A stretch of DNA of 24,371 nt from a virus. The notes under the pieces are model-generated. The model had not been told where the DNA came from. It made no database searches and saw nothing but the letters and a program-made list of their open reading frames with translations. The stretch covers positions 1 to 24,371 of the IMG/VR virus record IMGVR_UViG_3300031963_000900. One strand, 5' to 3'. Positions 1,854-6,793 of the stretch are shown here, in pieces (within the stretch, counting starts at the first letter, position 1; each line of letters opens with the position of its first letter). The position numbers and the translations under genes were made by a program.

Positions 1854-4019
1854 ATGGATGTACCTGACGCACTGACAACGCGACCGCAGTGGATCACCTG
1901 GCGGATCGTCGAAGGACAGAAGCGACCGAACTGCCGATGGCAGGATCCGGCTAACTGGTGCGAGTATTCCGAAGTCTGCGACTTTGAGAAGATCGGAATC
2001 GTGTTTACGGCCAACGATCCGCTGTGCGGGATCGACCTCGACGACTGCATTAATGAGGGTGGCGACTGGTCAAACTGGGCGATCGAGATCATGGACCGAT
2101 TTGCTGGCGTAGCATATGCCGAGATCTCTCCGTCCGGTGCAGGGGTCAAGCTGTGGACGCAGGCCAAGAAGCCGGAATGGGCGAAGTGCAGCAACGGCAA
2201 GGGTGTCGAGTGCTACGACCGGGACCGCTGGTTTACGGTCACAGGCCGGCGAGTCGATGAGTACAGCGAGATCGGCAACGGTCAGGATGCGGTGGACTGG
2301 TTGTGCGAGAAGCATCTGAAGGTAGGGGGCAAGGAATCGCCTGCGGCACCAAGCCAAAGGATTCGTTTTGCATCAATCGCACTGGCGGATCGTGCGAGGA
2401 AGTACGTCGAGAATGCCGACCGACCGAGTGCGGGAGGCCGGAACAATACGGCGTTTCGGTTGGCAGGTCATCTGTACGCAATGGTTCAGCCGGACGGCGA
2501 GCGATTGACGGAGGCGGAGATACTGGAGCTGATGAATTGGTGGAATCACGTCCTACCGGATCCGTTGGAGCCTCGGGAGATTGAGCAGGTGGTTGCGTCG
2601 GCTGGGAAGTCGGGGACTCCGCGGCAAGACAAGGAGCCGACGCTGCGGGTTGCTGAGGATCCCGAAGTCGATATCTCAAAGATCATCAACCAGCAATGGG
2701 CGAACAAGCAGCAGGAACAAGCCGACGAAGACAACGACACCGACGAGGCGTTTTGCGAAGCGATGGTGCCGGAGTCGGGGTTGCTGCGTGAGGTGTTTGA
2801 TTTCTATTGCCGGATGGCGTACCGCAAAAGCAACGTCATGGGATTGGCGGTTGCGGTGTCGCTGTGCGAGACGCTCTTTGGCCGGCGAATCTGCAGTCAA
2901 ACAGACATGCGGACCAACGACTACAACTTGATTTTGGCGACAACAGGAAGCGGAAAGGAAGCGTGCGAGGCGACGATTACCAAGATCCTCGACGCAGCGG
3001 ATCCGACGGGGTCGCACCAACTGCCACCGGATATTCAGTCGGGGAATGGATTGATGAAAGCGATCTCGATCAACCCGTGCGGGATCTGGGTCTGCGACGA
3101 GTTCGGAAAGATCCTGCAAAGCGTGCTGGATAGGAAGGGGAACCAGCACATCAAGAACATCGGTACGCATCTGCTCAAGGTCTATTCAAAGAGCAACGGT
3201 GTCTATGGCGGTGCCGGCCATTCGGACGGGATCCGAAACCGAGTCAGGGAGCCGCACTTGGTTTTGTTGGGTCTTTCGACAGGCTCGACGGTATTCGCGG
3301 CGGTGAGCTCGGACCAGGTCGCTGATGGGTTGCTGGGTCGGATCGCGTTTTGGCCTGTGCAGGATCGGCCAGCTCCGTCGAGACGTTTCGAAAAAGTGTC
3401 TCCCAGCGAAGAACTGGTTGAGAAGGTTAAGGCCTGGATTGCGTTTGCACCAGGCGGGAATCTGGGTGCTCAGTTCCCACGAGCGGAGACGATCCGATTT
3501 AGCTCAGACGCGGAGATTCGATGGGATGAGCATGGCGTCCAGATCGATGAACGCATGCGTTCCGAGTCGGACGCACGAGCTGCGGTGTGGGCAAGGGTGG
3601 CGGCGCGAAGCATGAAGCTTGCACTGGTCCACCGAGCTGCTAGACTAGAAGTGGATCCAGGATCGTGTGCGTTCGAGTTTGTTCAGCTTGAACTGCAAGA
3701 CGTGAACTGGGGGATCAAGCTTTCGAACTGGCTAGCCAGGATCGCTTGTGACCTGATCCAAGAGAACACGGTTGACCGTGGACTCGATAAAGCAAAGATG
3801 GTGCTGACCGAGGCGACCAAGTATGGGCCGGCTCGGTCACGAGACTTGCTGCGAGCTTGTCGCAGCATTACGGCAGGGGACTTGGCCGCAGCCGCGGTTG
3901 CTCTTGGATACCTGGTCGAGGAGATCCCGACTAGGTCCAAAGGCAACAAGGCCAAGATCTACCGCCGACCTGACAGTGTCCTTGCTGTCCCGACCAGTGT
4001 CGGCAAGGAATCTCAATGA
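1854..4019 (+). CDS. Phage primase/helicase (AEP-like, PriCT-like and P-loop domains)
   Basis: A 721-residue replication protein. The ATG at 1854 is preferred over an in-frame start at 1785, which would run through the preceding gene. Residues 1-155 look like a primase-polymerase module: acidic motif GIDLDD (59-64), SPSGAGVKLW (92-101), and VECYDRDRWFTVTGRR (118-133). Residues about 177-252 resemble a PriCT domain (GRNNTAFRLAGHL...WWNHVLPDPLEPREIEQVV). Residues 310-550 form a DUF3987-like helicase region with a non-canonical P-loop, ATTGSGKE (362-369, Glu where Ser/Thr is usual), and a Walker B-like IWVCDEFG (411-418). The C-terminal 90 residues may be a winged helix. Role inferred: priming and unwinding at the phage origin, which may be the repeat array immediately downstream. 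Confidence 0.78.
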   Translation: MDVPDALTTRPQWITWRIVEGQKRPNCRWQDPANWCEYSEVCDFEKIGIVFTANDPLCGIDLDDCINEGGDWSNWAIEIMDRFAGVAYAEISPSGAGVKLWTQAKKPEWAKCSNGKGVECYDRDRWFTVTGRRVDEYSEIGNGQDAVDWLCEKHLKVGGKESPAAPSQRIRFASIALADRARKYVENADRPSAGGRNNTAFRLAGHLYAMVQPDGERLTEAEILELMNWWNHVLPDPLEPREIEQVVASAGKSGTPRQDKEPTLRVAEDPEVDISKIINQQWANKQQEQADEDNDTDEAFCEAMVPESGLLREVFDFYCRMAYRKSNVMGLAVAVSLCETLFGRRICSQTDMRTNDYNLILATTGSGKEACEATITKILDAADPTGSHQLPPDIQSGNGLMKAISINPCGIWVCDEFGKILQSVLDRKGNQHIKNIGTHLLKVYSKSNGVYGGAGHSDGIRNRVREPHLVLLGLSTGSTVFAAVSSDQVADGLLGRIAFWPVQDRPAPSRRFEKVSPSEELVEKVKAWIAFAPGGNLGAQFPRAETIRFSSDAEIRWDEHGVQIDERMRSESDARAAVWARVAARSMKLALVHRAARLEVDPGSCAFEFVQLELQDVNWGIKLSNWLARIACDLIQENTVDRGLDKAKMVLTEATKYGPARSRDLLRACRSITAGDLAAAAVALGYLVEEIPTRSKGNKAKIYRRPDSVLAVPTSVGKESQ

Positions 4020-4026
4020 AAACACC

Positions 4027-4210
4027 CACTGTCCGCACTGTCCGCACTGTCCCAAGGGGTAGCCTCCCAGCTTCTTTGACCCAAGGAGGGTCTACACCTA
4101 TCAGGACAATGGGACAGTGGTATTTAGTATGTGTGTTTTATATGGATTTTTATAGGGTTTTTTACTCAAAACCACTGTCCCGAAATGGATCGGGACAGTG
4201 GTGGACAGTG
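4027..4210 (+). repeat. CACTGTCC octamer array, candidate replication origin or operator cluster
   Basis: Seven exact copies of CACTGTCC lie in 184 bp. Forward copies are at 4027-4034, 4036-4043, 4045-4052 (9-bp period) and 4173-4180; inverted copies are at 4112-4119, 4193-4200 and 4203-4210. Degenerate copies occur at 3975-3990, 4103-4109 and 4212-4218. Between the groups is a strongly AT-rich segment (4121-4170). The block fills the only sizeable gap in the replication module (4020-4227), directly after the primase-helicase gene. Iterons flanking an AT-rich unwinding region are typical of replication origins, so origin function is inferred. A binding site array for a phage regulator is the alternative. 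Confidence 0.6.
4171..4202 (+). repeat. 12-bp perfect inverted repeat within the octamer array
   Basis: ACCACTGTCCCG (4171-4182) and CGGGACAGTGGT (4191-4202) are perfect reverse complements around an 8-base loop (AAATGGAT). A second, weaker inverted repeat, GGTTTT (4156-4161)/AAAACC (4168-4173), abuts it. No T-run follows the 12-bp stem, so it is not a standard terminator. A protein-binding palindrome or a single-stranded initiation hairpin fits better. Confidence 0.6.
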
Positions 4211-4227
4211 CAGGACAGAGGTAGAGC

Positions 4228-4596
4228 ATGAGGCGATTCGTTAGACGGGATAACACTCGGTACGGAAAACGGCATGTGCCGGGCCAGATGAACCAGACGG
4301 AGGCAGCGTACGCGGAAACGCTGCTGCTTCGCAAAATGGCATCGGAGATCATCGATTGGCAGTTTGAGGCGATCACCTTCAAGCTGGCTCCGGACTGCCG
4401 CTATACGCCAGATTTCGCGATCTGGATGGCGGACGGGACGATGGAGTTCGTGGATTGCAAAGGCGGAGGTCCGATGGATGAGAAGTCGCGGGTCAAGGCC
4501 AAGGTCGCCGCAGAGAGGTATCCGATGTTTGTGTTCGTGATCGAGCAGAAGAAAGCCAAGAAGGATGGCGGCGGTTGGAAGCGGGAAGTGTTTTGA
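4228..4596 (+). CDS. DUF1064-type phage nuclease (PD-(D/E)xK fold)
   Basis: A 122-residue protein with the layout of small phage DUF1064 endonuclease-like proteins: NQTEAAYAE (22-30, with E25), YTPDF (59-63, with D62) and EFVDCKGG (73-80, with D76 and K78). It then has SRVKAKVAAERYPMFVFVIEQ. The E...D...D-x-K spacing matches a PD-(D/E)xK nuclease active site, so catalytic residues appear intact. The family is typical of phage replication and recombination modules; branch resolution or DNA degradation is inferred, not shown. The start ATG follows the octamer array, with AGAGG about 10 bases upstream. The C-terminus is Lys-rich. Confidence 0.75.
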   Translation: MRRFVRRDNTRYGKRHVPGQMNQTEAAYAETLLLRKMASEIIDWQFEAITFKLAPDCRYTPDFAIWMADGTMEFVDCKGGGPMDEKSRVKAKVAAERYPMFVFVIEQKKAKKDGGGWKREVF

Positions 4597-4611
4597 GAAC
4601 AGGAGGCCGGC

Positions 4612-4830
4612 ATGAACGGATTGATTGACCTGAAACAGATCGCTCGGCTCACTGGAATGTCTTACACAACGATCCGAGTTTGGCGGAAGGCCGGCGTGCT
4701 GCCGCCTCCGATGATCGAGTTGTCGAACAACCGCAGATACTGGACGATCGAGCAGTTAGAAAAATGGCGGTGCCAGTTGTCGCCAGTTGTCGCCAGTCCG
4801 GTTGATTCGGACGAGAGTTCGAAACCCTGA
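4612..4830 (+). CDS. MerR/AlpA-like helix-turn-helix DNA-binding protein
   Basis: A 72-residue protein with an excellent AGGAGG site 8 bases before ATG. Residues 4-58 (LIDLKQIARLTGMSYTTIR, VWRKAGVLPPP, RYWTIEQLEKW) form a MerR-type winged helix-turn-helix of the excisionase/AlpA-like class. The long effector or coiled-coil half of true MerR proteins is missing. Such proteins serve as phage regulators or excisionases; which applies here cannot be told, because no integrase is in the window. Codons 54-63 are encoded by a 10-bp tandem repeat (about 2.6 copies of GCCAGTTGTC, 4772-4797). Confidence 0.75.
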   Translation: MNGLIDLKQIARLTGMSYTTIRVWRKAGVLPPPMIELSNNRRYWTIEQLEKWRCQLSPVVASPVDSDESSKP

Positions 4831-5776: not shown

Positions 5777-5927
5777 TTGTGCAAACGGTCAATGCCGCAT
5801 GCCAAAGGTTGCTGCGGTTGTTGAGCCAGTGGCAAAAGTCGCTGCTCTTCCTGTGACAAAAACGACCCAGTTTTTCAAACAGCGTCAGCCAGTGCGTTCG
5901 GCACTGCGGAGGCTGGTGGGTAGATGA
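5655..5927 (+). CDS. Secreted small protein overlapping the previous gene in another frame
   Basis: A 90-residue protein. The start at 5655 is preferred because GGAAGGG lies 7 bases upstream and it yields a clean Sec signal peptide (MYVLRLAMISIVLLMLTSQQNGATA, cleavage likely after residue 25 at ATA-MPS). An earlier in-frame start at 5577 would bury the signal. The mature part has a CANGQC motif (CxxGxC) and a basic C-terminus (VRSALRRLVGR). No lipobox cysteine is present. It overlaps the preceding gene by 122 bases in the +1 frame, as outer-membrane spanin genes often do. Similar CANGQC motifs are, from memory, frequent in small secreted planctomycete proteins. Function unknown. Confidence 0.55.
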   Translation: MYVLRLAMISIVLLMLTSQQNGATAMPSAPFSDPSVMDSSDCANGQCRMPKVAAVVEPVAKVAALPVTKTTQFFKQRQPVRSALRRLVGR

Positions 5928-6793
5928 GCGAGCTGGACCTGACGGAACCTGATTTGCCGGTTGGCGGTTATCGAATCGAGCTCGAAGACCGCGAAGGAAT
6001 CGCGGCTTCTTCGACCGATTGTTTGTTCGCGACGTTCGGCGACGTTCCCGTAAAGGTCGATCCTCGCAAGAGTCCGCTGGCGCAGAAGGGCTGGTTGCAG
6101 GTAGAAAATCAGCTACAGGTTGGATCGTGTCAGGGGCAAAGTCTAACCGAGTGCTCTGAGTTTTGTTGGGCAACGGCGACGGGCGGCAACGTGATCCAGT
6201 TGTCTCGCATGTACGCCTATCTTCGCTCGCAGCAGTTCGACAACATTCGCGGTGACTCTGGCAGCACTTTGTCAGGTGGCACGAAGACGGCCAAAGAAGG
6301 GATCTGCCTGGAAGCAATCGGCCCGTATACCTCTAGTTATCCTGGCTGGGGTTGGATCACTCCAGCGATGAGCGAGAACGCGAAGAACTACAAGCTCAAG
6401 ACGCACTCGGTGATCAGGTCGGCGGACGAGGTGCGACAGTATATCGGATCTGGTATTGGGATCGTCCAGATCGGGATTGCCTGGAATTCGACGATGACGC
6501 CTGACTCGCGAGGTTGTATTCGTCGGTGGTCTCCAGGCGGCGGCGGGCATGCGGTCGTCTTCTGCGGCTATCTACCTGATGCCGAAGTGGGTGCTCAAAG
6601 CTCGAAGGGCTGGTGGGCATTGCTCAAGAACAGTTGGGGTACACGCTGGGGCATTGGTGGCTATACCTATGTCGATCCCAGCGCGATCAACCAGATGCTG
6701 TCGCACTCATGGACGGTCATGATCGGGCGATCGGACATGGAGGTTCCAGGTCCGCGAAACATCGATTGGGTGAAGGAGAGCGTTTTCTCATGA
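5924..6793 (+). CDS. Papain-family (C1) cysteine protease
   Basis: A 289-residue protein with the full C1 peptidase signature: VENQLQVGSCQGQS, in which Q63 is the oxyanion glutamine and C69 the nucleophile with papain-like six-residue spacing; GGGGHAVVFCGY with catalytic H209; and LLKNSWGTRWGIGGY with N236. All four active-site residues are present, so it should be active. There is no signal peptide and only a short N-terminal extension (about 45 residues), which could act as a propeptide. It starts at an ATGA overlap with a secreted-protein gene and ends at an ATGA overlap with a membrane-protein gene. The setting suggests release into the envelope via a holin, and attack on host envelope protein is inferred. 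Alternatives are virion maturation or an injected virion protease. Confidence 0.88.
   Translation: MSELDLTEPDLPVGGYRIELEDREGIAASSTDCLFATFGDVPVKVDPRKSPLAQKGWLQVENQLQVGSCQGQSLTECSEFCWATATGGNVIQLSRMYAYLRSQQFDNIRGDSGSTLSGGTKTAKEGICLEAIGPYTSSYPGWGWITPAMSENAKNYKLKTHSVIRSADEVRQYIGSGIGIVQIGIAWNSTMTPDSRGCIRRWSPGGGGHAVVFCGYLPDAEVGAQSSKGWWALLKNSWGTRWGIGGYTYVDPSAINQMLSHSWTVMIGRSDMEVPGPRNIDWVKESVFS

Follow-up and report, generated by a model that had tools for sequence, protein, structure and literature searches.

A two-sided iteron array behind a phage DUF3987 primase-helicase gene is a probable replication origin, with a repeat word that appears to follow the C-terminal winged helix

A C-terminal domain of SaPI Rep, and likewise of SCCmec Cch2, binds iterons that follow the protein's own gene, and the helicases of SaPIbov1 Rep and SCCmec Cch belong to the DUF927 family (PMC7581432). 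The PrimPol-helicase of plasmid pRN1 (ORF904) has an essential origin just 3' of its gene (PMC4234260). The alpha protein of phage P4 is characterised as a primase-helicase with a C-terminal winged-helix origin-binding domain (PMC10516667). The PICMI satellites require a DUF3987/DUF5906-type primase for normal replication, and the accessible part of that account describes no origin (PMC10803314). DUF3987 proteins are predicted helicases, and it has been suggested that an attached winged helix might recognise the origin (PMC5862659). In the literature that we searched, there was no report of an origin for these proteins.

The locus described here has the order seen in the SaPI and SCCmec elements, i.e., a helicase gene with short iterons directly 3' of it. 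It lies in a stretch of 24,371 bases of viral DNA, the whole of which we analysed (hereafter the window). The gene (1854-4019, forward strand) encodes a primase-helicase of 721 amino acids, the proposed initiator, composed of an NrS-1-like PrimPol domain, PriCT_1, a DUF3987 AAA+ helicase and a predicted C-terminal winged helix. We favoured the ATG at 1854 over the TTG at 1785 because, in one relative (L007), a stop codon lies shortly before the corresponding position. The protein matched PriCT_1 (E 1e-9) and DUF3987 (PF13148, E 1e-7, 31.9 bits, above the Pfam gathering cut-off of 27), as well as the DNA primases of PHROGs (phrog_3022, E 6e-62). Its N-terminus is of the AEP/PrimPol type, as it resembles the NrS-1 primase-polymerase in sequence (E 3e-10) and in fold (Z 21.8). 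In the AlphaFold2 model (mean pLDDT 82.9), MCM-type AAA+ proteins were the nearest matches of the helicase core (Z 17.9, rmsd 3.4 over 263 residues).

The structure prediction also gives the protein a C-terminal DNA-binding domain of the winged-helix type. This putative iteron-reading domain spans residues 640-704 (3771-3965, forward strand), with predicted helices at residues 642-657, 662-668 and 674-684 and strands at 687-692 and 699-704. Modelled alone (pLDDT 80.4), it matched winged-helix DNA-binding proteins at the level of the common fold only (best Z 7.5). Among the 60-residue blocks in the conserved half of the protein, it is the most variable, with a mean identity of 0.52 vs 0.63-0.80 in the helicase blocks. 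The primase half, for its part, is swapped in some relatives: L021 shares 65-66% with L013, L088 and L089 in the helicase and only 10-13% in the primase half (residues 1-280), and L022-L027 carry a different N-terminal primase type.

The array takes up the intergenic space from the primase stop (4017-4019) to the start of a DUF1064 gene (4228), and begins 8 nt past the stop. The original prediction counted seven exact copies of the octamer CACTGTCC here, and we reproduced both the count and the orientations: four forward copies start at 4027, 4036, 4045 and 4173, and three inverted ones at 4112, 4193 and 4203. All are within 4027-4210. As expected from that prediction, the octamer reaches no similar density elsewhere, with not one further exact copy in the 24,371 bases (chance level for the whole window: mean 0.73, maximum 2 in 100 dinucleotide shuffles). 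The left iteron block (4027-4052, forward) consists of three direct copies with a 9-bp period, as had been described. Next to it is an inner left pair on the reverse strand (4104-4119), made of CATTGTCC (4104, one mismatch) and CACTGTCC, both inverted. The AT-rich core, a proposed DNA unwinding element, extends over 4122-4171, where AT reaches 78%, vs 44% in the whole window. A stretch of this kind had been placed at 4121-4170; it is present between the repeats and is unsurpassed by any other 50 bases of the window, with its peak one base further on. The inner right iteron (4173-4180, forward) belongs to the left arm of a perfect inverted repeat (4171-4183/4190-4202, 6-nt loop), which comprises the last direct and the first right copy and measures 13 bp, not 12 bp as first reported. 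The right iteron block (4193-4220, reverse strand) contains two copies of CACTGTCC followed by CTCTGTCC (4213, one mismatch). Once this near copy is counted, inverted copies recur every 10 bp on the right (4193, 4203, 4213), and these three face the three direct copies of the left block across the AT core. Two degenerate copies, CAGTGTCC (one mismatch) and TGCTGTCC (two mismatches), lie on the forward strand in the final primase codons (3974-3990, starts 3974 and 3983). The window has the elements expected of an iteron origin, with clustered short repeats, an AT-rich stretch and a putative initiator gene side by side.

We collected relatives of the primase by scans of IMG/VR. This primase family was found in about 50 viral contigs, nearly all of which have a two-orientation array around an AT-rich stretch behind the stop. 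The original prediction proposed a search for the octamer beside homologous primases: the array is indeed kept there, but the word itself changes. Copies inside one phage agree, and the words differ among relatives (TTTTGTCC, CTTCTTTCC, AGATGTCC, CGATTGTCA, AGTTGTCGC, CTTTTGTCC and CCTGTCC, and further CTTCTGTCC, ATCTGTCC, TTCTGTCC, AGGTTGTCC, CGAGTGTCA, CGATTGCCG and CGTTTGGCA). In 35 of the 36 distinct loci, the count of the repeated 7-mer was matched by at most five of 200 shuffles, where the 7-mer counted in L018 and L019 belongs to a separate one-strand array and their own two-sided array is unclear. The exception (L017) has a remnant array only. In the separate array of L018 and L019, some 330-430 bases past the primase stop, AGGGTGAAG is repeated six to seven times in direct orientation, always on the same strand. 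All of the later in-family loci with enough flank and a readable array have it behind the primase. In the contigs checked, the iteron word was 38 to nearly 700 times denser behind the primase than elsewhere. The alignment of the window with L009 runs through the array, with spacers partly retained and iteron letters swapped site by site. Two pieces of the AT core (TTTTTATAGGGTTTT and GTGTTTTAT) are retained in L008 and L009 despite their different iterons. Distant primases of cultured phages of Acinetobacter, Rhodobacter, Pseudomonas and Paracoccus (L072-L075) have no such array downstream.

Downstream genes are not conserved: DUF1064 is present in the nearest relatives only, the MerR-type gene in the nearest relatives and, as weak matches, in two others, and the downstream sequence is unrelated between relatives sharing one array. 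Upstream of the primase, the sole window neighbour conserved in nearly all relatives is ORF226 (226-495), which resembles the C-terminus of a helicase-like protein. Many of L012-L027, L088, L089, L111 and L127 carry a TAGTGTACA-like motif (TGTACA core) on both flanks of the array, once within the last primase codons; the window lacks it. The window also encodes a papain-like C1 peptidase (5924-6793, Pfam E 2e-10), a gene that is also found in L003, L006, L007, L012, L013, L022, L026 and L027. In L135 (135-2931), the translation of a DEAD-type helicase has an apparent intein-like insertion (CLDAATEVLVPGG ... VLGNCGRG).

The change of the word among relatives was compared with the change of the protein. 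In one clade of nine members, the difference between words was correlated with winged-helix identity once helicase identity was allowed for (partial Mantel r=-0.68, p=0.0002 by label permutation). Over all pairs, the partial correlation with the winged helix given the helicase was weak (-0.13), because very distant pairs saturate, and the claim rests on the within-clade test. The helicase tree makes L014 the sister of L013 and L127 that of L088/L125, and the grouping by word cuts across it: CTTCTTTCC is common to L013, L088 and L125, and CAGATGTCC to L014 and L127. L026 and L027 are about 100% identical in helicase residues 290-640, and in the final 700 bases of the helicase their DNA agrees at about 95-98%; identity then falls to 71% in the winged helix and to 43-65% in the array DNA, before returning to 91-100% from +300. 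Each is a single metagenomic contig, and an assembly artefact is an unlikely source of this contrast. The right-hand TAGTGTACA-like copy of these two phages sits where identity resumes. These comparisons strongly suggest that the array word tracks the winged helix rather than the helicase body, i.e., that the link is at the level of the domain.

One residue may account for part of this link. Among all columns of the protein alignment, residue 663 showed the closest association with base 2 of the five-base core (normalised mutual information 0.71, the next column reaching 0.48). It is Arg in phages with a TGTCC-like core, and in phages with TTTCC it is Ser (L013, L088, L125) or Thr (L188, L189). 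Before the last scans, we predicted the presence of the array and this rule for new relatives. An array was present in every distinct new group of the family. In the follow-up set, the rule holds in L201 (Thr, TTTCC-like), and L266 and the L257 group (Arg, TGTCG) obey it if helix 2 is one residue shorter. There is one apparent exception (L249, which keeps G and lacks Arg) and one unclear case (L264), and the register of the word is unclear in both. The association is suggestive, and R663 may be the residue that contacts base 2 of the TGTCC core. The association found for base 5 of the core (C to A) is confounded by descent, since its best columns lie outside the winged helix too.

We consider that the array is a replication origin, or at least its initiator-binding part, read by the winged helix of the upstream primase-helicase, with a probability of roughly 85%. 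This iteron-type origin beside the primase, which the original prediction had proposed, is well supported because the array stays behind homologous primases, is absent from the rest of those contigs, and has a word that co-varies with the winged helix. By analogy with SaPI Rep, Cch2 and pRN1, the primase-helicase would bind the octamers via its C-terminal winged helix, and the direct left and inverted right copies would set two helicase rings facing each other across the AT core. The core would then melt, the rings would load and unwind outward, and the PrimPol domain would prime. Cumulative GC skew, suggested earlier as a check, had no turning point at the array, either in the window or in four longer relatives; it tracked gene orientation and lends the origin no support.

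An operator cluster, through which a regulator, or the primase as a self-repressor, controls the downstream genes, could look similar. The array directly precedes the DUF1064 gene and the MerR-type gene, and operators often combine inverted with direct sites in arrays. Plasmid initiators also commonly repress themselves at their iterons, which could coexist with origin function. Yet the array persists where both the DUF1064 and the MerR-type genes are missing, and the sequence downstream is unrelated among relatives with the same array, which makes such a cluster an unlikely explanation. Our scan of 3900-4700 found no sigma-70-like promoter and no terminator, although this type of promoter may not be that of the host. 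The MerR-type HTH protein (4612-4830), which had been put forward as a binder, was rejected as a candidate: it is not likely to bind the array because its gene is missing from most of the relatives that keep the array.

The adjacency to the primase might also reflect linkage alone, the array being bound by some other phage or host protein, e.g., a factor for partition, packaging or recombination. Recombination moves the array along with the C-terminal half of the gene, and the co-variation could therefore be partly a matter of linkage. However, it is the winged helix in particular with which the word changes, over and above the kinship of the adjoining helicase, and the downstream side of the array, which is just as linked, does not follow the winged helix. 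Moreover, apart from the primase, the only window gene conserved beside the array is the upstream helicase end (ORF226). We regard another binder as very unlikely. There is hardly any chance that the repeats are coding, or a low-complexity tract arisen by chance. A 71-codon ORF (4016-4231) has an ATG that shares bases with the primase stop; it crosses the whole array in the window, and its frame stays open across most of the array in L006 and L007. But both of these stop earlier, L008 and L009 have no overlapping start at the primase stop, and substitutions at codon positions 1/2/3 (3/4/0 in L006, 6/6/4 in L007) show no excess at position 3. The ORF was rejected as a gene on this substitution pattern and on the earlier stops, and the dinucleotide-shuffle counts exclude a chance tract.

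The origin reading was complemented by wider searches. Arrays of the window octamer CACTGTCC (exact CACTGTCCnCACTGTCC) also occur in other phages, beside unrelated replication proteins: in L033, L041 and L049 they directly follow the gene of a VapE-like helicase, in L043 that of a DUF927 helicase, and in L062 they lie near a Toprim/AAA_25 protein. Many other matches of the pattern are plain coding sequence. The region 3800-4700 had no match in Rfam, and a DNA search for the array among cultured phages gave none either. In two scans covering 84,980 genomes of bacteria and archaea, no relative of the primase was confirmed, and hence no host can be assigned.

If it functions as proposed, the array supplies an origin for a family of uncultured tailed phages with DUF3987 proteins. 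It would also provide a rule for finding origins, namely a two-sided repeat directly after the primase-helicase gene, with a word specific to the phage. With more than 20 repeat words, each with its matching putative reader domain, it would become directly testable how initiator and origin change together without loss of function, and the set includes near-identical phages that differ mainly in reader and array. The coding region of the winged helix and the array can apparently be exchanged as one fast-diverging unit of specificity. We propose, more tentatively, that the two may form a specificity cassette, quickly diversified and exchanged by recombination, that gives each phage lineage a private origin. 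Such a cassette would be to replication what heteroimmunity is to repressors, and would limit the cross-use of replication machinery by co-infecting phages or satellites. Its natural pairs would let a residue-to-base recognition code be read off.

Compared with the described systems, the window shares features with several and differs from each. The helicases of SaPI and SCCmec are of the DUF927 or D5/Primase_Cterm families and the one of the window is DUF3987. SaPI5 Rep also has a primase domain. Those elements are chromosomal islands, whereas the window is a contig of a tailed phage that encodes a terminase and a portal protein, and the reading of iterons is predicted there. In a probe of kinship with the SaPI Rep/Cch helicases, 7ola aligned in the primase part only, and 7pds (PriRep1 with dsDNA) was among the structural matches of Foldseek, with a weak score (E 2e-3). 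As in P4 alpha, the window protein is a primase-helicase that ends, by prediction, in a winged helix; the iteron sequence and site layout of P4 differ from those of the window array. The PrimPol fold at the N-terminus is shared with NrS-1, whose helicase part is SF3-like, whereas that of the window is nearest to MCM-type AAA+ cores. The origin of the archaeal plasmid pRN1 is a stem-loop without iterons. In lambdoid phages and iteron plasmids, initiator and iterons are co-inherited and type-specific, and the iterons adjoin an AT-rich stretch. The O protein has no helicase or primase, and the lambda iterons are inside the O gene, whereas the proposed reading domain here is the C-terminus of the helicase itself. 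Hence, the array is, on our reading, an iteron origin of a known general kind. What is new is the evidence for such an origin in DUF3987 phages and for a putative winged-helix/array cassette, and the sequence comparisons that support it are unusually direct in suggesting that a reader domain and its array change together.
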